Shown here: positions 10,335 through 30,256 of the stretch, in pieces
Layout: each line of letters starts with the position of its first letter
How positions within the stretch are numbered: position 1 is the first letter of the stretch
Source of the DNA: a virus
Virus record (IMG/VR): IMGVR_UViG_3300028394_000204
Span: 1-33,842 of that record
Length of the DNA stretch: 33,842 nucleotides
Reading direction: 5' to 3' (one strand)
Translations under genes and position numbers: made by a program
Notes under the pieces: generated by a model
Told to the model about the DNA's origin: nothing
The model's input: only the letters and a program-made list of their open reading frames with translations
Database searches by the model: none

Positions 10335-13300
10335 ATGGCCGATTTTAAAATAGCAAAAATTAGATATACCTGGAAAGGTACATGGAGCGGAACTACACAA
10401 TATGTAAGAGACGACATTGTTTATTACGGCGGAAAATCTTATGTTTGTTTTGTAACGCACACTGCATCAACAACATTTCTTGCTGATTTAACGGCAGCTA
10501 CTCCTCGCTGGGTATTGATGTTTGACGGTGGCTCTTGGAGAGGAGCATGGTCAACTGCTACTTTATACAACCCAGGAGACATAGTAAGATACGGTGGAAT
10601 TGCCTACAGAGCACTTACAAGTCACACCAGCGCGGCAACAACTGTATTGGGATTGGAAGCTAATCAAGGCGCTTGGACTACTTTGGCCAAAACTGAAGAT
10701 TGGAAAAATGCATGGACTACTTCAACACAATACAAAGTCAATGACATTGTAAAATACGGAGCACAAGTTTATCGTTGTGTGACTGCTCACACCAGTGCCG
10801 CAATACCGGAAGATGGTTTAGAGACTGATCTTAGCAAATGGGAATTGGTTATTCAGCAGGTTGAGTACAAATCCAATTGGACTGGCAGTACTCGATACAA
10901 GGTTGGAGATGTAGTAAAATATGGCGGAACTTTGTGGAAGTGCAATACCAGCCACACTTCTTTGTTAAGTGTATTTACTGTGTCTAATTGGGATGTCTAT
11001 CTAGATGGCTTACAATGGGAGTCATTACCTTGGTCCCCAGTGACAACTTATCAGAAAGGTGATATTATTGGATACGGCGGGTATGTGTATCGAGCATTAC
11101 AAATACACTCTGCACAACAACCGCAAGCAACAGCCAATGCTTATTGGGGATTAGTAACAGAAAACTACGAATTCCGAGGTTCATGGTCAGCAACTACTGT
11201 GGATCCAGTAGGTCCTTTAGATTATAGAGTTGGGGATGTTGTTAGATTAAACGGATACTTGTATTTGGCAATACTAGATAATACAGGTATAGAACCTCCT
11301 AATGCAACTTATTGGAAAGTATTAAATCAAGGCAATGCTTGGAGAGGGTTATGGAGATTAACAGATCCTGATCCAGTTACTGTTGGATTAACTGTTCCTG
11401 TAAACTTTAAACTTGGTGATCTTGCAACGCAAGGATCTACAACATACGAATGCAAACTAGCCCACACTGCATCAACTCCTCGAGCACCAGTAACTGATGT
11501 TGCAGGGTCTGGCACATACTGGAAAATATACATTGAAGGCACAACTACCAATGTATTGGCCAATCAAGGTGATATTGCCTGGTACGATGCTGGAGTTAAA
11601 AAACGTTTACCAGTAGGCACTGACGGACAGTTGCTACGTGCAGGCACAAGTGGTGCATTGTCATATAAATCATGGGGCGTTATTCCAAAAGTTTATTATG
11701 TTGCACCCACAGGAACAGACAATGAATTGTTGGGTTACGGGGTATCCTTAGACAAACCATTCCAAACAGTCAAATATGCATGTGAACACGTTACTGGACC
11801 CGCAACAATTTTTATCAAAACAGGAATTTACAGTGAAGTATTACCAATCACAATTCCTGCGGATGTGGCATTGGTAGGCGATGAATTGCGTAGCACGGTG
11901 ATACAACCAACCAGCGGATACACTACCAGCAACATGTTCTATGTGCGCAACGGATCTGGTATTCGCAACGTGACATTGCAAGGACTGAGTGGAACATTGG
12001 GCTCATTTAATTCGTTCTTGACAAAACGTCCAACCGCAGGTGCATTTATAAGTTTGGATCCAACTGGTATTGCTATTACCGAAGCTAGAATTACAACCAA
12101 ATCTCCTTACATACAAAACGTCACTGCCATTGGTACCGGGTGTACTGGATTAAAAGTAGACGGTGCAGTGCATGGTGGAGGAAATAGATCCATTGTGGCC
12201 AACGACTTCACAATGATTATCAGCGATGGTATTGGCTATTGGATTACCAATCGAGGCAAATCAGAATTGGTTTCTTGTTTTACCTACTACTGTCATATTG
12301 GTTATTTGGCAGAAAATGGTGGAAAGATTCGTGCCACCAACGGCAATAACTCATATGGAGACTATGGTGCAGTTAGTGAAGGGTCAAATACAGATGAAAT
12401 TCCTATTACTGGCACAGTTAATAATCGTAGCCAACAAGCATCAATAGGATATACATTCACAAACGGCTCACAAATAATTGCTTTAGAATATACCAACGCA
12501 GGACAAAACTATGACACAGCGGCCGCATACTCATTTGGCGGTTCAGGATCAGGAGCAGTTGTTTCTGCAGCCACAGTTACTAATGGTGGAATTTTTGAAA
12601 TTCGCTTGCGAGACCCACTCAACGGCGACAGTGCTGGCGGCAGCGGGTTTATATTTTCGCAAAGTTATGCACAAGCTGGATCTACAACTGGAACAATTAC
12701 CATAGCAGCCGGCGACGGCAACACTCGAGCAAATTATCTTGGCATGAGAGTTGTTGTTATTTCAGGTAAAGGTGCTGGACAATACGGATACATACAGGAT
12801 TACAATGCAACTACCAAAGTTGCTACAATATACAAAGAAACTGATGGTACGCAAGGGTGGGATCATTTCCTACCAGGCAGCACACTAGTTGTGTTAGACA
12901 CCACAAGTCAATACAATATTGAACCTAGAGTAGTTATTGCCGCACCCTCCAGCGGTACTCAAGCCATTGCAAGGGTAACTGTATCTGGCGGCCGAATTGG
13001 CGGATTTAGAATTATTAATCCTGGATCAGGTTATAATTCAGGCACACCTCCAACAGTGACATTGATATCACCAGGACAATCTGCCGCAACGTATACTGTT
13101 CGAGTTGGAAATGGTGTATTGGGACAACCTACATTCAGTAATAGCGGAACAGCATATTTGACAGCAACTGCAACTGTGTCCGGAGTTGGATATGCAGACA
13201 GTTTTCAATTTGGTGCATATTTGTATGTTTCTGGTATCTCAGTAGTGCCTACACCTGGAGCAAACATAATAATAGTTGGAGTATCAACAGTGTTTCGATT

Positions 13301-14027
13301 GGTCACTGTAAGTCAAGTTAGTGGATCAGGTCCGTACAGTTGCAGACTGCAACTGAATCCAACACTTGAACTGAAAGATGCACCAGCACACGGAACCAGT
13401 ATTCAAATTAGATCTGACTATAGTCAGAACAGATTAACAGGTCACGACTGGTTAGAAATAGGAACTGGTAATTTTTCAACTACCAACTATCCTTATGTGG
13501 ATACTACTACAGTGCGCACTGGAAATCTTGCAGTGGAAAATGGTGGCGGCAGATGTTTCTATACAGCAACGGATCAAGACGGTAACTATAGAGTGGGTAA
13601 TTTGTTTAAAGTAGAACAAGCCAGCGGTATTGCCACACTGAACGCCAGCTTCTTTGACCTAAACGGATTAACACAACTTACACTGGGTGGTATTGTGCTA
13701 GGAGGAACCAGTGCAACCATTACAGAAATTTCAACAGATGCAACACTACCATTGAATTCAGACAATGTGATTGTAACACAACGAGCGTTGAAATCTTACA
13801 TCTCATCAAGAATTGGTGGTGGTGGCGCAAGTCTCAATGCCAACACTGTGGTGAGCGGACAAATTTCATTTAATCAAACTACAATTGGAGCCGCAGTTTC
13901 AAGTAACATAACAAATACTGATCCTGCAAAATCAATCAACTTTGCCGCTAGAGTTAATTTCACAGGCGGAGTGGACGGTAGTATGATGGCAAGTGCATTT
14001 TTTATAGCACAAAGCCGTGCAAGATAA
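10335..14027 (+). CDS. Large tail fibre: seven CBM5/12-like repeats plus beta-helix
   Basis: The 1230-aa protein begins with seven repeats of about 50-60 residues (residues 1 to ~420) of the form W.g.W...T.Y..gDiV.YGG..Y.c...HT, resembling CBM5/12 chitin/carbohydrate-binding modules. From residue ~453 (VYYVAPTGTD) a pectate-lyase-like right-handed beta-helix follows, with VALVGDELRSTVIQP, MFYVRNGSGIRNVTLQG and GYLAENGGKIRATNGNNSYG. Two 'N.G..Y' segments, then GRCFYTATDQDGNYRVGNLF near 1070 and TQRALKSYISSRIGGGG near 1150 complete a C-terminus known from marine T4-like fibres. No lyase catalytic residues can be assigned. AGAGAG precedes the ATG. It is probably a long fibre or host-recognition protein and is the uninterrupted paralog of the next gene. 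Confidence 0.82.
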   Translation: MADFKIAKIRYTWKGTWSGTTQYVRDDIVYYGGKSYVCFVTHTASTTFLADLTAATPRWVLMFDGGSWRGAWSTATLYNPGDIVRYGGIAYRALTSHTSAATTVLGLEANQGAWTTLAKTEDWKNAWTTSTQYKVNDIVKYGAQVYRCVTAHTSAAIPEDGLETDLSKWELVIQQVEYKSNWTGSTRYKVGDVVKYGGTLWKCNTSHTSLLSVFTVSNWDVYLDGLQWESLPWSPVTTYQKGDIIGYGGYVYRALQIHSAQQPQATANAYWGLVTENYEFRGSWSATTVDPVGPLDYRVGDVVRLNGYLYLAILDNTGIEPPNATYWKVLNQGNAWRGLWRLTDPDPVTVGLTVPVNFKLGDLATQGSTTYECKLAHTASTPRAPVTDVAGSGTYWKIYIEGTTTNVLANQGDIAWYDAGVKKRLPVGTDGQLLRAGTSGALSYKSWGVIPKVYYVAPTGTDNELLGYGVSLDKPFQTVKYACEHVTGPATIFIKTGIYSEVLPITIPADVALVGDELRSTVIQPTSGYTTSNMFYVRNGSGIRNVTLQGLSGTLGSFNSFLTKRPTAGAFISLDPTGIAITEARITTKSPYIQNVTAIGTGCTGLKVDGAVHGGGNRSIVANDFTMIISDGIGYWITNRGKSELVSCFTYYCHIGYLAENGGKIRATNGNNSYGDYGAVSEGSNTDEIPITGTVNNRSQQASIGYTFTNGSQIIALEYTNAGQNYDTAAAYSFGGSGSGAVVSAATVTNGGIFEIRLRDPLNGDSAGGSGFIFSQSYAQAGSTTGTITIAAGDGNTRANYLGMRVVVISGKGAGQYGYIQDYNATTKVATIYKETDGTQGWDHFLPGSTLVVLDTTSQYNIEPRVVIAAPSSGTQAIARVTVSGGRIGGFRIINPGSGYNSGTPPTVTLISPGQSAATYTVRVGNGVLGQPTFSNSGTAYLTATATVSGVGYADSFQFGAYLYVSGISVVPTPGANIIIVGVSTVFRLVTVSQVSGSGPYSCRLQLNPTLELKDAPAHGTSIQIRSDYSQNRLTGHDWLEIGTGNFSTTNYPYVDTTTVRTGNLAVENGGGRCFYTATDQDGNYRVGNLFKVEQASGIATLNASFFDLNGLTQLTLGGIVLGGTSATITEISTDATLPLNSDNVIVTQRALKSYISSRIGGGGASLNANTVVSGQISFNQTTIGAAVSSNITNTDPAKSINFAARVNFTGGVDGSMMASAFFIAQSRAR
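10350..11560 (+). repeat. Seven tandem CBM5/12-like repeats (1230-aa fibre)
   Basis: The repeat starts are marked by WKGTWSGTT, WRGAWSTAT, WKNAWTTST, YKSNWTGST, WESLPWSPV, FRGSWSATT and WRGLWRLTD. Each is followed by a GD(I/V)V-like strand, a Tyr/Trp and usually HT. Repeats 6 and 7 have longer loops. Confidence 0.75.
11916..11965 (+). repeat. 50-bp perfect repeat, copy 1 (beta-helix)
   Basis: The segment beginning GGATACACTACCAGCAACAT is identical base for base to 16078-16127 in the neighbouring giant fibre, while flanking codons differ at several synonymous sites. It encodes GYTTSNMFYVRNGSGIR. Confidence 0.9.
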
Positions 14028-23965: not shown

Positions 23966-24304
23966 ATGGCAACAGGAAGATTAGGAATCGCTGATTTAGC
24001 GGCAACAACATACACAAATTTGTACATTTGCCCTGCAACAACATTTGCAGTGGTTAACGTGTCATTGTGTAATAGAAATGCAACATCAGTTACAGTGCGA
24101 GTTGCACTGACAACCACTTCAGCATCAGGCAACACTGCTCCTGCTGATAATGCATTTTTAGAATATGACGTTACTATTCCAGCAAACTCCGTACTTGAAC
24201 GCACTGGTATAGTGGTTGATTCAACTAACAAATACATCACAGTACGTGCAAGCGCAACTGGTGTCAGTGCTGTAGCATACGGCATTGAAACCAGTACAAC
24301 ATAA
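23966..24304 (+). CDS. Small beta-rich virion protein (paralog 3 of 3)
   Basis: The 112-aa protein opens with MATGRLGIADLAATTYTNLY, then CPATTFAVVNVSLCNRNAT, alternating strands, and NSVLERTGIVVDSTNKYITV before the end. It has the overall layout of the 4633 and 9609 products: a binding-face strand, an 'N....V.V' strand, a P-rich turn and a 'k.i.v' strand. This style is common for small proteins next to fibres in marine phages. GGAG lies upstream of the ATG. It follows the giant fibre by 13 bases and precedes the Cys-rich pair, so it may adapt one to the other; that is an inference. Confidence 0.68.
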   Translation: MATGRLGIADLAATTYTNLYICPATTFAVVNVSLCNRNATSVTVRVALTTTSASGNTAPADNAFLEYDVTIPANSVLERTGIVVDSTNKYITVRASATGVSAVAYGIETSTT

Positions 24305-24316
24305 GGAGTAACGGTA

Positions 24317-25960
24317 ATGGGTCGTTTTGTACAAGTTAACGTAACAACACAAAATCTTGCCAAAGTAGCTCCAAAGGTTCCTCTTGCCAAAACCTACTAC
24401 AACGGTAAAGAGTGTTGGCAATACAAAGTAGTATATGATCGTCCAGGCACTTACACATTCACAGTTCCTTCCAATGCTATTTGCGCTAGAACTGTGATTG
24501 TGGGCGGCGGCGGCAAACCGGTTTGTACAAACGGAAATTGTTGCGGATTTGCTGGCGCTGGCGGTGGATACAGTGATAAATGCCATGCTATTACTCCAGG
24601 TGCCACAACATTCACTATTGTGGTAGGACGTCAAAGTCAAGATTCATCAGTTGCATGTAACAGCGTGGGCGTTCACACTGCTGGCGGCGCAGCCGCATGT
24701 ACTGAAGGCACAGCATCAGGCGGTAACTTCAACAGCACAGGTGGTTGCGCTGGATACAACTGTAATTTTTGTAACGGATCATACAGTCACCATTGCGGTG
24801 CTTGCATTTATTTGAACTGCACCAACTGTTGCGGATATTGCGTGATATTTGGTTATACTGATACTGATCACGGTGATAACCGCGCAGGCTGTTGCGTTGC
24901 GGCATATGCTGGCGGCGGATCAGCTGGTAGCCCGCGCCACTGCAAAGGTGGTTGCGGTATGATTATTTGTAATTCAGGCACTGTTACCCACGGCGGAACA
25001 GCCGGTGGTGGCGGTGGTGTAGGCGGTGGCTTTCCGGGCGGCAGTCCATCACCAGTTTGGCAATTTACCTGCTGTAACTGTGTGTGTCCAAACTTTGACG
25101 GCAACGTGGGTGGTGGATGTCAATACTGGCAAATTTGTAACCCTGGTGGTGCTGGCGGCGGCGGCGGTAGTCATACTCCGCCGCCTATGCAATGTCGTAG
25201 TTGGGAAGGTGTATGTCAAGCGCACACATGGCAAGGTGGATGTGGTGGATTAGGCGGTGATAACACAGCGGCTGCTGAAGCATTACCGGCCAAGTGGAAT
25301 ATGTATATGCGTTGTCGTTACAACGAATCATATGGCGTAAGTTGCCCGCATTGGAAAATTGACTTTAATCCCAAACGTTTTGATCCATGCTATTATCCAT
25401 GGTGGGATATTTGCAATATCAGTGGTGCAGGAGCTCCAGGCCATGTCAACGAATCAAACTATTTCTGGTGCTGTATGCCAAGTCAGCTGAGTGGATTCTG
25501 GGGTCGTCCAGCAAATTCAGGTGAAGGCGCTGGCACAGGCGGCACATTCATGAGATGTTGTAACTTGGATCAAGCGGGTGATGCTTATCCGGTAAATGAC
25601 GGTAGTCCAGCTTGTTCAGTAAATTGGATATTGTTGTGCTGTCTTGGCGCACTAGCTGATCCCTACAGATGCGATGCGGCTTATGCACTAAAAGATAAAT
25701 TATTCAGCGGATTTGTAAGTTGTGCAGGAACACTGGGCGGATCTGGTGGTACTGGCATGTGTAATTATACTAGTAAAGCAGGTTTTGGTGGCGGAGGCGG
25801 ACATGCCAAATGTCACTTTGTTTGTGTATGTTGGGGCGGAGCTTATGACTGCTGTAATCAGGTAGCTAGCACACCGTTGGCATTTCCACCGTGCATCTTG
25901 GATAATTTATTAAGCAATGCTGGTTCGGGCATGGCTATTGTTTACTATAAGGAAGCATAA
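24317..25960 (+). CDS. Glycine- and cysteine-rich adhesin-like protein A
   Basis: The 547-aa product has about 51 Cys (9%) and very many Gly. An N-terminal beta segment (ECWQYKVVYDRPGTYTFTVP, residues 32-51) leads into VIVGGGG, the start expected of a Gly_rich_2-like domain. At least eight glycine runs follow (GAGGGY, GGGSAG, GGGGGVGGG, GGAGGGGGS, GEGAGTGG, GGSGGTG, GFGGGGG), as in polyglycine-II adhesins such as those of gp38 type. Cys occur as CC pairs and CxxC/CxC, for example NCCGYC and YDCC. The C-terminus has ASTPLAFPPCILDNLLSNAG. No signal peptide is present. A strong AAGGAG precedes the ATG. It is most likely a receptor-binding tip protein; the cysteine load is unexplained. Confidence 0.7.
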   Translation: MGRFVQVNVTTQNLAKVAPKVPLAKTYYNGKECWQYKVVYDRPGTYTFTVPSNAICARTVIVGGGGKPVCTNGNCCGFAGAGGGYSDKCHAITPGATTFTIVVGRQSQDSSVACNSVGVHTAGGAAACTEGTASGGNFNSTGGCAGYNCNFCNGSYSHHCGACIYLNCTNCCGYCVIFGYTDTDHGDNRAGCCVAAYAGGGSAGSPRHCKGGCGMIICNSGTVTHGGTAGGGGGVGGGFPGGSPSPVWQFTCCNCVCPNFDGNVGGGCQYWQICNPGGAGGGGGSHTPPPMQCRSWEGVCQAHTWQGGCGGLGGDNTAAAEALPAKWNMYMRCRYNESYGVSCPHWKIDFNPKRFDPCYYPWWDICNISGAGAPGHVNESNYFWCCMPSQLSGFWGRPANSGEGAGTGGTFMRCCNLDQAGDAYPVNDGSPACSVNWILLCCLGALADPYRCDAAYALKDKLFSGFVSCAGTLGGSGGTGMCNYTSKAGFGGGGGHAKCHFVCVCWGGAYDCCNQVASTPLAFPPCILDNLLSNAGSGMAIVYYKEA

Positions 25961-25963
25961 GAA

Positions 25964-27586
25964 ATGGGACGTTATATAAGCACGGGACAAACACAAGCAA
26001 CTGCTTGCACGAGCTTTGCTCCTACCACATGTTATCAAGTTACCAATCATAAGTATTCGTATGATTCTAATGAATGTTGGCAAAATCGACTGATGTTGGA
26101 CAAGCCAGGCAGTTATACGTTTGTTGTACCAACAACTACTACTGGTAGCTCAACTGCCTGTATTAGAGCCATTGCAGTTGGCGGCGGCGGCAAAGCATGT
26201 TGTAGTGATTTTTACTGTAATTTTGCAGGTTCAGGCGGCGGCTATGCTGAGTCAGTTCACACTGTAACAGCTGGTTGTGTTATGACCATTGTGGTGGGAC
26301 GTCAAAGTCAAGATACCACCATTGGCTACACTTGTCAAGGTGGCGTTGCTCAAACATTAACAGGCGGCGGCGCGGTAACTAGAGTTCCAGGTGCTGGTTC
26401 TGGTGGCAACATCATGAACAGTCGTGGCGGATGCGGAGGTTGGGGACGTAACTATCAAGAAGTTAACGGAACATGCCCAAGTACTTGTATCTGTATATAC
26501 CCAACTACTTGTTGCGGATATTGTGTGGTGTATGGTTGTAACTGTATAAGTTTTAACGGTGATGCTTATTGTGTATCGTATTTCCCAGGCGGCGGATCAG
26601 CAGGTAGCTTTATGTACCCATGCGGAGGATGCGGCGGAACAGTTTGTAGCAAACAATCAACATATGGTGGATCCGAAGGCGGCTCAATGGCCGGCGGCGG
26701 TGGCGGAATAGGTTACTTTAATAAATGTTGCACACTATCTTCACGCTGTTTCTGTATTTGCCGTATGTATGGTAACAGCCAGCAACCAGGTGTGTGCAGT
26801 ATAACCATTGCTGGCGGCGGTGGCGGAAGTCGTTTTGTACCAAAAATGTCTAGCTGTGAACAAACACTATGGACAGGTTTATGCGAAGGCGGCCTTTGGA
26901 GAACTGGCGCTGGCGGCCGTGGCGGATGTGATAATCACGAAGGAATCCCAGATACTATGTACTGGTCATGCCACTTGTGCATGTGTACTGGACGTAGTGA
27001 ACATGATGTTTGTTGTGGAGTAGCACCTAAAAAATGGCCTTGGCACGATGTATATTCAATATCAGGTTCAGGAGCGTCCGGCAAAGGTTTAGGTTACTGT
27101 CGTAGCGATCTTGACCAAGGCCAGTACTGGGTAACTGGTTGCTCATGGGGCGGCCGCCCAGAAGATTCGGGCGAAGGCGCTGGTACAGGTGGCGCAGTAT
27201 ATCCTAACTTGTGTGATCCTGTCAACGTGGGTTGGCCATGTACCCCAGGCTGGTTCTTGGATTGGCAAGCAGTGTGCCAAATGGGCTTGCAAGGCAGTGC
27301 TACTAATGCATACGATCAGCCAAAGAACTTAGCTCCTGGAATTATCAGCCAAGCTGGTATATTTGGCGGATCAGGCGGCATTGGTGTTCACGGATTTGCA
27401 AGCAAAGCAGGCGCTGGTGGCGGCGCTGGCGTATTTAAATGCTATATTTTATGTATCTGTTATGGCGGATCATATGACTGCTGTAATGGCGTGGCAAGCA
27501 CACCACTGGCATTTCCACCATGCATATTAGACAACATCGTTAGTAACGCAGGTTCAGGCGTTGCAATAATTTATTGGAAAGATTAA
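25964..27586 (+). CDS. Glycine- and cysteine-rich adhesin-like protein B (paralog of A)
   Basis: The 540-aa product has about 47 Cys and is collinear with the 24317 product. Shared anchors are ECWQ....DKPGSYTFVVP, VGGGGKACC, IVVGRQSQD, TTCCGYCVV, PGGGSAG, GGGG blocks, SGEGAGTGG, GSYDCCNGVASTPLAFPPCI and NAGSGVAIIYWKD. Between anchors, loop lengths and sequences differ, while most Cys in anchors are kept. It follows A after three bases, with AAGGAAG upstream of the ATG. The tandem arrangement suggests duplication followed by divergence of the exposed loops, as expected for receptor-binding proteins. No enzymatic motif is seen. Disulphide bonding or metal binding are both possible; neither can be decided from sequence. 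Confidence 0.7.
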   Translation: MGRYISTGQTQATACTSFAPTTCYQVTNHKYSYDSNECWQNRLMLDKPGSYTFVVPTTTTGSSTACIRAIAVGGGGKACCSDFYCNFAGSGGGYAESVHTVTAGCVMTIVVGRQSQDTTIGYTCQGGVAQTLTGGGAVTRVPGAGSGGNIMNSRGGCGGWGRNYQEVNGTCPSTCICIYPTTCCGYCVVYGCNCISFNGDAYCVSYFPGGGSAGSFMYPCGGCGGTVCSKQSTYGGSEGGSMAGGGGGIGYFNKCCTLSSRCFCICRMYGNSQQPGVCSITIAGGGGGSRFVPKMSSCEQTLWTGLCEGGLWRTGAGGRGGCDNHEGIPDTMYWSCHLCMCTGRSEHDVCCGVAPKKWPWHDVYSISGSGASGKGLGYCRSDLDQGQYWVTGCSWGGRPEDSGEGAGTGGAVYPNLCDPVNVGWPCTPGWFLDWQAVCQMGLQGSATNAYDQPKNLAPGIISQAGIFGGSGGIGVHGFASKAGAGGGAGVFKCYILCICYGGSYDCCNGVASTPLAFPPCILDNIVSNAGSGVAIIYWKD

Positions 27587-27596
27587 GGAGATTTAA

Positions 27597-28193
27597 ATGA
27601 CACAATGGGCAAAAATGGTTGATAGCGATGGAGACGGTAATTTTGAAATTTACCAACTTCATGACGAAGATCCAAGCGGATTATGGCACCCAGATGCACT
27701 GGAATTTTGGAGGGAAGTGCCCGACGAACATGCGGCAATTGGCAATGTTTTTGAAGAAAGCACACAAACATGGTATACTGGCGCCGCCTGGGGTTTGAAG
27801 AAAACAGCTGAAGCACCTAAACCAGATGTTGCACCTAAACCAATTGCTATTCCACTTGGCGCAGTGCTGGAATTAGAAATTACTAATGCAGGTTCTAATT
27901 ACGAAACTCCTCCAGTTAGAAATCAATATGATATTGAAGATGGCAAACGTTTGGTAGCAACTGTAACATATGATCCACTAACTGAAAAAGCAGTTAGTGT
28001 TGAAATTAATGAGGCAGGCGAAGGCTACAAAGTCGGACAAACATTTATTATTAATGTGGGATTTGGTAGAGATTGGGATCGTAAAAATCCTGATTATACC
28101 ACTGTACGTATCAAGCGTGTTAATACCGATGCAGAAGCTACTAAACCAGCTGATGTAGCTGTAAGTAACTCACCCGGCGCACCAGCACCGTAA
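27597..28193 (+). CDS. Virion-region protein with EF-hand-like loop
   Basis: The 198-aa product begins MTQWAKMVDSDGDGNFEIYQ. Residues 9-17 (D-S-D-G-D-G-N-F-E) fit a calcium-binding EF-hand-type loop. Next is a Trp-rich acidic part (LWHPDALEFWREVPD), an Ala/Pro/Lys linker (APKPDVAPKP), and a beta domain with LELEITNAGSNYETPPV, the same 'N.GS.Y..pP' motif as in the fibres and the 2926 product. The tail is Ala/Pro-rich. It closes the adhesin operon, just before a hairpin, with AAGGAG upstream. Position suggests an assembly partner or structural companion of the Cys-rich adhesins; that is a guess. Calcium binding is a motif-based inference. Confidence 0.6.
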   Translation: MTQWAKMVDSDGDGNFEIYQLHDEDPSGLWHPDALEFWREVPDEHAAIGNVFEESTQTWYTGAAWGLKKTAEAPKPDVAPKPIAIPLGAVLELEITNAGSNYETPPVRNQYDIEDGKRLVATVTYDPLTEKAVSVEINEAGEGYKVGQTFIINVGFGRDWDRKNPDYTTVRIKRVNTDAEATKPADVAVSNSPGAPAP

Positions 28194-28252: not shown

Positions 28253-28933
28253 ATGAGTGAGCAAATTGAGTTTTTTCCAATAATAGCAGGAATTGAAAAA
28301 ATAGAACCAATAGTAGTGGCTTCAAACCCTGCACGTCCACTGCCTTTTGAAAAAGAAAGCCATTCCATGATGAGCTGTCCAGGAATTAGGGATTTAATTT
28401 CCACAGGCTACGTAATAAATTTATGGCAAGACATACTGATAACAGTTGGGCCTGATCACAGTGTCAATGCATCAGGTAGCGGCACTATGACAGACCACGA
28501 CGGCAACCCGTTCCAAGATATACAATTCCACGATGAGCGGACTTTTGCAGGTTATTCATTTGGGCCAGAATATTTCAATTTTTCTATGAAATTACGATGT
28601 CCGTGGTATGTAAGAACTAAAAAAGACACTTCTATACTGTGCCTACCAGTATTTTATAACGAGTCTCCTCATTTTACAGTGGCATCTGGAATTATTGATA
28701 GTGGCAAGTATCCTATGATTCTTGTACAAATAATTTTAAGAAAATTCGAAGGCGAATTATTGCTGAAAAAAGGCACTCCATTGATGCAGTTAGTTGCTGT
28801 AAAAAAACAGCCTGAAATAAAAATGTATGATTCAGACAGCCCAATTAAAAAATCAGTTGGTGTATTAAGAAATTGGATTGCAAGTAAAATGCACACTGCA
28901 ACGCAATATAGGAACATGGATAAACTATTATGA
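28253..28933 (+). CDS. Phage protein of unknown function (relative of the 29537 product)
   Basis: The 226-aa protein has a CPGIRDLISTGYVINLW segment (residues ~42-58), a polar middle with DHDG, the hydrophobic stretch FSMKLRCPWYV, and a GTPLMQLVAVKK segment near 178. The same order of landmarks (CPAFLKSV..TFVV, then NFLFFC, then GDPLYYIKF) is seen in the gene at 29537, so the two appear to be distant paralogs. They may belong to the DUF6065-type phage family, but that is from memory and uncertain. No catalytic residues are evident. The stop overlaps the start of the oxygenase gene (ATGA), giving a coupled unit. Its ribosome site is buried in the preceding hairpin. Confidence 0.6.
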   Translation: MSEQIEFFPIIAGIEKIEPIVVASNPARPLPFEKESHSMMSCPGIRDLISTGYVINLWQDILITVGPDHSVNASGSGTMTDHDGNPFQDIQFHDERTFAGYSFGPEYFNFSMKLRCPWYVRTKKDTSILCLPVFYNESPHFTVASGIIDSGKYPMILVQIILRKFEGELLLKKGTPLMQLVAVKKQPEIKMYDSDSPIKKSVGVLRNWIASKMHTATQYRNMDKLL

Positions 28934-29535
28934 GTAATACCAACGCAGATCTTGACGCCATTGTCATGATAGAAAAAGATTTCATTGCTCAGTTTCCTGG
29001 ATTTATTCCACCGGAATTCTGTGAAATGCTGATTGAGAATTTTGAACATAACAAATCAATGCAAAAAGTTATATATTCTGCAAAAGATAATATTAAACAA
29101 CGACTGCCGTTGCTGAGAGAAGATTCGGCATGGTTTTTAAATTATCATGATAAACATGCGGCAAATGTTGTAAACTGGTTGTGGGTTGCATTAGACAAGT
29201 ATGTTGAGAAATATCAACAACTTGCAGAAATACCATTGTGGCCCAGCGAATTGAAATTGCAATGTACAGAACCCAGCGGCGGATTTCACACGTGGCATTA
29301 TGAAAGCAGTAATTTTAATATGTCACAACGAGAACTAGTTTGGATGTTTTACTTGAATGATGTGCCAGACGGCGAAGGCGAAACTGAATTTTTATATCAA
29401 AAAACAAGAGTTAAACCAACAGTTGGAACGCTGGTAATTTGGCCTGCAGGTATGACACATGTGCATCGAGGTAATACAATGTTTACACAGAACAAATATA
29501 TACTAACTGGTTGGTTTATCAAAATTCCTCGGTAA
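28930..29535 (+). CDS. 2-oxoglutarate/Fe(II)-dependent oxygenase, prolyl-4-hydroxylase-like
   Basis: The 201-aa product fits a compact double-stranded beta-helix dioxygenase. The iron triad can be placed as H123-x-E125 (in GGFHTWHYES) and H179 (in MTHVHRGN), with K189 ten residues further on as the likely 2-oxoglutarate salt bridge. Two structural strands, ELVWMFYLND and TLVIWPAG, lie between. Having Glu instead of Asp in the HxD/E motif is allowed in this superfamily. Such enzymes are frequent in marine T4-like phages and hydroxylate proteins, nucleobases or small molecules; the substrate here is unknown. It overlaps the upstream gene by four bases and lies between two related unknowns, suggesting a shared pathway. 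Confidence 0.85.
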   Translation: MSNTNADLDAIVMIEKDFIAQFPGFIPPEFCEMLIENFEHNKSMQKVIYSAKDNIKQRLPLLREDSAWFLNYHDKHAANVVNWLWVALDKYVEKYQQLAEIPLWPSELKLQCTEPSGGFHTWHYESSNFNMSQRELVWMFYLNDVPDGEGETEFLYQKTRVKPTVGTLVIWPAGMTHVHRGNTMFTQNKYILTGWFIKIPR

Positions 29536-29536
29536 T

Positions 29537-30256
29537 ATGAAAACTGTATATTATTCTGCATCGGTGCCTCCAGAGCTATACGGCAATGATTTTATGCTGT
29601 ATCAAGAACCTGATAGCTTGTACAAAGAATTACTAGCCAATAAAAATAAAGAAAATACACATAACAATTACATGGATTGTCCAGCATTTTTAAAATCAGT
29701 GCAAAATACATTTGTAGTACGTTGTCCGTGGACTAGCAAACTTACAGTGGATTATTCAAATGGAACTTTTGTAAATGAACAAGGTCAACGGGATGAAATT
29801 GCCGAGCATTTTACTCCTAAGCCTACTTCACGTACCAATCCAATGTTTAATGTTTATCACAATTTTTTATTCTTTTGTGAGGACGATTTAGAAATAACAA
29901 CTAGTCCTGCGTTTTTACATAACACTGAATTTCAATCTAATTGTACATATATTCCAGGAACATTTAATATTTCAAAGTGGTTTAGACCCATAGAAGGAGC
30001 ATTTGAAATGAAACACAGATTTCAAACTCTTGACATTGCAATGGGTGATCCGTTATACTATATAAAATTTAATACTACAGATTCTATTAAGTTAGTACGA
30101 TTTGAGTTAACGCCGGAATTATGGAATATGACACAGGGATGTGTTAACCATAAAAAATATCAACCTAACAAATCTCTTGTTTATTTGTATAAGTTGTTTT
30201 TTCATTCAGGAAGACAACGACAAGTACTGAAGAAAATTAAAGAAAATATAATATGA
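29537..30256 (+). CDS. Phage protein of unknown function (relative of the 28253 product)
   Basis: The 239-aa product has MDCPAFLKSVQNTFVVRCPW at residues ~46-65, then LTVDYSNGTF, FLFFCEDDLEITTSPAFLH, TFNISKWFRPIEGAFEM and GDPLYYIKFNT. It shares landmark order with the 28253 product but is more aromatic and basic at its C-terminus (RQRQVLKKIKENII). No signal peptide or known motif is seen. It starts two bases after the oxygenase stop with no clear ribosome site, and overlaps the next gene by four bases, so it is probably translationally coupled. A substrate-binding or carrier role for the oxygenase is conceivable but unsupported by motif. Confidence 0.6.
   Translation: MKTVYYSASVPPELYGNDFMLYQEPDSLYKELLANKNKENTHNNYMDCPAFLKSVQNTFVVRCPWTSKLTVDYSNGTFVNEQGQRDEIAEHFTPKPTSRTNPMFNVYHNFLFFCEDDLEITTSPAFLHNTEFQSNCTYIPGTFNISKWFRPIEGAFEMKHRFQTLDIAMGDPLYYIKFNTTDSIKLVRFELTPELWNMTQGCVNHKKYQPNKSLVYLYKLFFHSGRQRQVLKKIKENII

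Follow-up and report, generated by a model that had tools for sequence, protein, structure and literature searches.

The best structural counterpart of the proteins described here is gp24 of cyanophage Pam3 (PDB 7ypx, 7yfw), a tail fibre in which a TNF-like beta-sandwich runs into a lattice of glycine-rich loops, as it does in the models presented below; the loops form the stem, and receptor binding is proposed to take place at their distal ends, which are hypervariable (PMC9608196). Ordinary members sampled from the Pfam family Gly_rich_2 (PF21722), whose cut-off is passed by marine relatives of these proteins, contain 29-41% Gly and 0-2.7% Cys. To our knowledge, host recognition by T4-like cyanophages is poorly understood. 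The present analysis concerns a window of 33,842 nucleotides, that is, the whole of the 33.8-kilobase IMG/VR virus record IMGVR_UViG_3300028394_000204, and within it two adjacent paralogous genes, here called twin A and twin B, whose products are rich in both glycine and cysteine. On account of the fold matches, the role of Pam3 gp24 and the position of both genes at the tail-fibre locus, the twins are very probably, as far as predicted models can tell, tail-fibre-tip adhesins of a known fold.

Predicted fold and distribution of the twins

The AlphaFold2 model of twin A, made with 33 sequences, predicts a TNF-like beta-sandwich joined to a Gly-rich loop domain with large Cys-bearing loops (predicted local distance difference test, pLDDT, 71.4; predicted template modelling score, pTM, 0.78). 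Its top match in the PDB is the Pam3 fibre gp24 (7ypx_A, Z 11.5 over 173 residues, root-mean-square deviation 3.6), followed by the Bxb1 tail tip (Z 9.5) and the TNF-like plus Gly-rich domains of ALK/LTK (Z 6.6-8.8), with unrelated folds at Z 5.5 or lower among the matches listed. The model of a relative from the marine family described below (pLDDT 73.8, pTM 0.77) gives the same ranking, with Pam3 gp24 at Z 16.6 (192 residues), Bxb1 at 13.3, ALK/LTK at 7.8-8.9 and unrelated folds at 3.4 or lower. These matches, together with the position at the fibre locus, support a preliminary description, made from the letters of the DNA, which had called the twins adhesins and named, as one option, a scaffold for variable loops.

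The same description recognised no known family, which is right only in part. The fold is already known, since S-CAM3 gp156 (33.9 bits), Sf-FS3 (27.1 bits), S-SSM7 (24.9 bits) and the locus L051 (32.0 bits) pass the PF21722 cut-off of 24.3 bits, but the Cys-loaded tandem form appears to be undescribed, and no description of it was found in the literature searched (open-licence PMC papers). Against PF21722, the window twins and their close homologues give no match at E <= 10, and twin B of the locus L035 scores 23.0 bits, below the cut-off. A profile of the twins matches that of the marine family with E 1.4e-6 and a probability of 90% over an N-terminal strand-plus-Gly segment.

Cys-loaded arrays are widespread: many T4-like phages of aquatic habitats, cultured cyanophages among them, carry one at the tail-fibre locus. 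A search of IMG/VR with a six-sequence twin profile yielded 24 related loci, in which both twins are present wherever the locus is long enough, directly after a giant fibre and a conserved small protein as in the window; intact copies hold 41-53 Cys in 522-565 residues each. In one locus (L018:9527-11226), a frameshift splits twin B into two overlapping open reading frames (ORFs), which may reflect either a genuine mutation or faulty assembly. The small protein of 112 residues and the start of the fibre lead by similarity to the cultured cyanophages P-SSM2, S-CAM1, S-CAM3, S-SSM7 and Sf-FS3, in all five of which an array is positioned after a tail fibre gene. P-SSM2 encodes PSSM2_304 and PSSM2_306, in tandem and syntenic with the twins, with 36 Cys each (10.1%), while the syntenic trios of S-CAM3, S-CAM1, S-SSM7 and Sf-FS3 encode Gly-rich proteins with 24-36 Cys (8.0-11.6%); all are annotated as hypothetical.

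A wider scan of viral contigs, using the marine-family profile and search patterns without Cys, returned at least 299 further matches, with 79 loci kept. Most of the loci inspected have two to three such ORFs in an array, with five as the maximum; the resolved match ORFs contain 6.1-11.1% Cys. A collection of 235 Cys-rich ORFs was assembled with a 5% Cys filter, and its count alone is no proof of Cys-richness in every relative; matches obtained without the filter, all with at least 6.1% Cys, point to general Cys-richness, but the queries were themselves Cys-rich. The same locus in marine virus AG-345-P14 (L033:5117-5965) contains a single Cys-rich ORF of 282 residues, without long Gly runs and with no family match.

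Cysteine content, conservation and Cys-poor relatives

The cysteine counts given by the preliminary description, 51 in 547 residues for twin A (9.3%) and 47 in 540 for twin B (8.7%), are exact, and compare with 55 in 9788 residues (0.56%) for the remaining 20 genes of the window; with this background as the expectation, the twin counts have binomial probabilities of about 10^-43 for A and 10^-38 for B. Such content is indeed exceptional when the twins are set against ordinary members of the fold, but Cys-rich arrays are common in the twins' own group.

Conservation was assessed in an alignment of about 31 near-full-length homologues covering both paralogues. Ranked by residue, Gly comes first and Cys second, and columns with at least 90% Cys number 27 among the A paralogues and 17 among the B paralogues, with 16 reaching this level in both. 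The near-invariant cysteines are partly grouped, as CCxxC (171-175), CxCxC (253-257) and CxC (503-505). Between twin A and its counterpart in the locus L001, Cys codons have undergone 13 synonymous and 2 replacing changes, compared with 38 and 48 for the other residues with twofold codons. Because conservation is second only to Gly and the changes at Cys codons are mostly synonymous, the cysteines of the twins are, by this sequence evidence, under purifying selection. The earlier statement that most Cys anchors are kept between the two copies is right in part: the twins are 43-44% identical (E 3e-84) and share the 16 near-invariant columns, outside which Cys is gained or lost singly between close homologues. 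The variance of the Cys count is about what independent columns predict in A and somewhat lower in B, and homeostasis of the count is not claimed. The inference of Cys pairs from co-loss of columns was tried and rejected as unusable, being dominated by clade structure (14-16 sequences).

The 3'-terminal 146 bases of the twins (window 25808-25953 and 27437-27582) share 72% DNA identity, and in L001 the identity is 77% over 188 bases, where both copies contain identical stretches such as CCNGAASTPLAFPPCILDN. Conversion between copies may be the source of this sharing between twins of one genome.

Cys-poor relatives occur in the fold, in the P-SSM2 genome and in the host group, so that the Cys-loading belongs to the gene set of the fibre locus and not to any of these three. 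Pelagibacter phage Mosig has, at the same locus, 1 Cys in a Gly-rich domain of 243 residues, and Gly_rich_2 segments were also sampled from other bacterial genomes, eight in all, of which seven contain 0-0.9% Cys and one 2.7%. P-SSM2 itself encodes a Gly_rich_2 protein, PSSM2_126 (L155:3666-5123), with 2 Cys in 485 residues and 27.6% Gly, while gp38 of Synechococcus phage syn9 contains 0.8% Cys. PSSM2_126 is placed between the genes for the small and large terminase subunits, an odd location for a tip-like protein. In the syn9 region gp36-gp39 (L156:28855-32327), gp36, gp38 and gp39 are Gly-rich, Cys-poor and tip-like, with gp38 and gp39 annotated as 'tail fiber assembly'; part of gp39 is duplicated internally, with an apparent change of frame. 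Gly makes up about 14-21% of the Cys-rich tips and 29-41% of the Cys-poor family domains, a comparison of whole ORFs with domains that is indicative only. Lower Gly in the Cys-rich tips would make sense if some of the stabilisation were due to Cys instead.

Proposed mechanism and alternatives

The twins would act as the receptor-binding tips of the phage's long tail fibres, synthesised in reduced form in the host cytoplasm and mounted on or beside the giant fibre encoded immediately upstream. In each, the strands of a TNF-like beta-sandwich would extend into a lattice of Gly-rich loops as in Pam3 gp24, with much longer, Cys-loaded loops. Once lysis has released the phage into oxygenated water, many cysteines would form disulphides, both inside single loops and subunits and from one to another, stapling the long, fast-evolving receptor loops onto the scaffold, and the two to five diverged copies per phage would supply several different tips. 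The gene pair with its Cys content, the conservation and turnover of Cys, the synteny and the predicted fold are shown by the results above, and the tip location, the receptor binding and the post-lysis oxidation are inferred; the stapling is the uncertain part, with partial stapling after lysis as the best guess. Taken as a whole, the proposal of tail-fibre-tip adhesins whose cysteines oxidise after lysis and staple receptor loops to a Gly-rich scaffold has about an even chance of being correct.

Several observations weigh against it. Over the 235 ORFs, the Cys number is even in 135 and odd in 100 (64 and 47 after thinning, p = 0.13), and independent close pairs with any Cys change (n = 55) differ by an odd number of changes in 34 cases and by an even number in 21. 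Given this near-random parity and the odd changes, many cysteines cannot be in obligate pairs. Odd counts and single gains or losses, in place of even numbers and paired changes, argue against the fully knotted, fully disulphide-paired scaffold that the preliminary description had entertained; what survives is partial or heterogeneous disulphides within and between subunits, or a role of Cys without fixed pairs, such as metal binding or thiol exchange. The CC, CxC and CxxC motifs emphasised earlier are present (8, 3 and 5 in twin A; 5, 6 and 3 in twin B), but in neither twin is this spacing enriched over shuffles with Gly fixed, which give 4.9, 4.8 and 4.8 for A and 4.1 each for B. As regards the adhesin role, no virion proteomics for these proteins was found in the literature on these phages. 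The twins reach no cut-off in Pfam, PHROGs or NCBIfam, and a PDB sequence search gave nothing useful. A tblastn search of cultured phages returned no direct match, for twin B not even at E 10, probably due to divergence and low-complexity filtering, and the link to cultured phages was therefore made via neighbouring genes and profiles.

A role without fixed pairs could be metal binding: the same adhesin would hold Zn, Fe or an Fe-S cluster through its conserved cysteines (CCxxC, CxCxC, CxC), the others being tolerated extras. The partial grouping of the 16 columns that are near-invariant in both twins and the single gain or loss of the remaining cysteines fit this explanation, and metal centres in phage tail tips have a precedent in relatives of lambda gpL, which, as Tam et al. 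reportedly found in 2013, coordinate an iron-sulphur cluster. It is nevertheless unlikely, as about 30 other Cys per protein would be unexplained, and in the marine family, which is equally Cys-rich, Cys is conserved at largely different positions, hence no one site defines the group. The amount of Cys may also outweigh its place, as the 41-53 Cys held per protein during single turnover of positions would suggest, and the cysteines could then remain for the most part exposed thiols or strained disulphides, which would exchange with thiols or disulphides of the host surface and make adsorption covalent or irreversible. Free thiols oxidise with time in oxygenated water, however, and those of a virion should do so too; since, in addition, no host partner is known and the Gly-rich proteins encoded at the fibre locus of syn9, whose host belongs to the same group, are poor in Cys, this possibility is quite unlikely. 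More broadly, and as a speculation with little probability of its own, there might be a widespread class of aquatic phages with thiol-rich tail tips in which the redox or metal state controls adsorption, switched or rendered irreversible when the tips are oxidised, be it in oxygenated water or on the surface of the host, with selection acting on the quantity of Cys and not on fixed pairing.

That the twins are not adhesins, but another virion protein or an intracellular one sharing the TNF-like plus Gly-rich fold, is very unlikely. The fold is also found in the animal receptor kinases ALK/LTK, the P-SSM2 relative among the terminase genes is Gly-rich as well, and the lack of virion proteomics would be compatible with such a role, but phage tail tips are the best structural matches, the position directly after tail-fibre genes is fixed across distant relatives, and both array duplication and fast-evolving loops suit receptor binding. 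An origin of the Cys content as a by-product of mutation or composition bias is extremely improbable: even though these A+T-leaning genomes use TGT more often than TGC for Cys (4680 TGT and 2864 TGC in the 235 ORFs), the other window genes stay at 0.56% Cys, P-SSM2 contains a Cys-poor Gly_rich_2 protein, and changes at Cys codons are far more often synonymous than replacing, which contradicts this explanation.

If the twins are tip adhesins, as preferred here, two to five genes per genome, still 'hypothetical' in P-SSM2 and S-CAM1, can be pointed out as likely receptor-binding tips. To this is added an unusual chemistry, 8-12% Cys, probably at the virion surface; were the cysteines redox-active, the redox or metal conditions of an aquatic system could influence how phages adsorb there.

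Gene neighbourhood, host and known counterparts

The window carries T4-like structural genes, including that of a gp23-like major head protein (PHROG 138), and from 5' to 3' its order is structural genes, tail fibre genes, giant fibre, small protein, twin A, twin B, the conserved downstream gene and an oxygenase cluster (Table 1). The twins are spaced by 3 bases, and a Shine-Dalgarno-like AAGGAG/AAGGAA lies ahead of each. From the gene order, the giant fibre is presumed to carry the twin tips. The gene after twin B is conserved in twin loci, where it encodes 163-251 residues with no PDB match and weak Pfam matches only, and its position makes the window product a possible fibre chaperone. The oxygenase cluster also encodes a Nol-like carbamoyltransferase.

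Table 1. Genes of the twin locus in the window and the grounds for their assignment
Feature	Position	Strand	Basis
Giant tail fibre, 3294 aa	14068..23952	+	ORF; resembles annotated tail fibre proteins of P-SSM2, S-CAM1, S-CAM3
Small conserved protein, 112 aa, between giant fibre and twins	23966..24304	+	Positional homologue in P-SSM2, S-CAM1, S-CAM3
Twin A, predicted Cys/Gly-rich tail-tip adhesin, 547 aa, 51 Cys, 99 Gly	24317..25960	+	ORF, homologues, AlphaFold2 model, PDB match
Twin B, paralogue, 540 aa, 47 Cys, 105 Gly	25964..27586	+	ORF; architecture like twin A by homology
Conserved 198-aa protein downstream of twin B (MxWAKIV...)	27597..28193	+	Kept in twin loci
2-oxoglutarate (2OG)-Fe(II) oxygenase, same gene cluster as twins	28930..29535	+	PF13640, 40.5 bits; PHROG 61

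Two genes (28253-28933 and 29537-30256) related to PHROG 7084, a group with no assigned function, flank the 2OG-Fe(II) oxygenase gene, and 2OG oxygenase genes are also found near the fibre locus of Mosig and syn9. At 10335-14027, the window encodes a tail fibre of 1230 residues with five CBM5/12-like carbohydrate-binding stretches.

Concerning the host, psbA/psbD (Photo_RC) and Hli gave no match in the T4-like twin contigs L001 (356 kilobases) and L040 (280 kilobases), nor in the other twin contigs tested; matches to both are present in one marine contig with an array, and only there. The only match of the twins in a bacterial genome is L035 (CAIJHZ010000130.1, 1-9195), a contig of a GTDB metagenome-assembled genome labelled uncultured actinobacterium. 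The actinobacterial host that this would indicate was rejected, the contig being an assembly chimera: the phage twins stand at its start, and already in the opening codons of the gene that follows twin B the sequence turns actinobacterial, with cytochrome oxidase/bc1 genes.

Among known systems, the Cys-rich proteins of S-CAM1, S-CAM3, S-SSM7, Sf-FS3 and P-SSM2 are held in PHROG 4205 and PHROG 35878, where no function is assigned; like the twins, they form tandem arrays at the fibre locus, here of Kyanoviridae, and exceed 5% Cys, but the twins are 1.5-2 times as long and show no sequence match to either group. Pam3 gp24 is equipped with an N-terminal helical trimerisation/docking domain, whereas the twin A model has no helix before its first strand (residue 25), with residues 1-14 at low confidence. 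The twins are also about twice as long as gp24, with large extra loops, and Cys-loaded, while neither cysteine nor disulphide is mentioned in the text of the Pam3 paper (PMC9608196). For the Tfa-like chaperone gene expected next to a tip of the gp24 type, the conserved downstream gene of the twin loci is a possible candidate by position, with no PDB match and weak Pfam matches. The mycobacteriophage Bxb1 tail tip (9d93) and the Gly-rich domains of ALK/LTK share the overall fold of the twins by structure comparison, but in another context. Even though the polyglycine adhesin gp38 of Salmonella phage S16 did not appear among the structure matches listed for the twin A model, and has a different middle domain according to the Pam3 authors (PMC9608196), it is alike in concept, a Gly-rich lattice showing variable receptor loops at the tip of a T4-like fibre.

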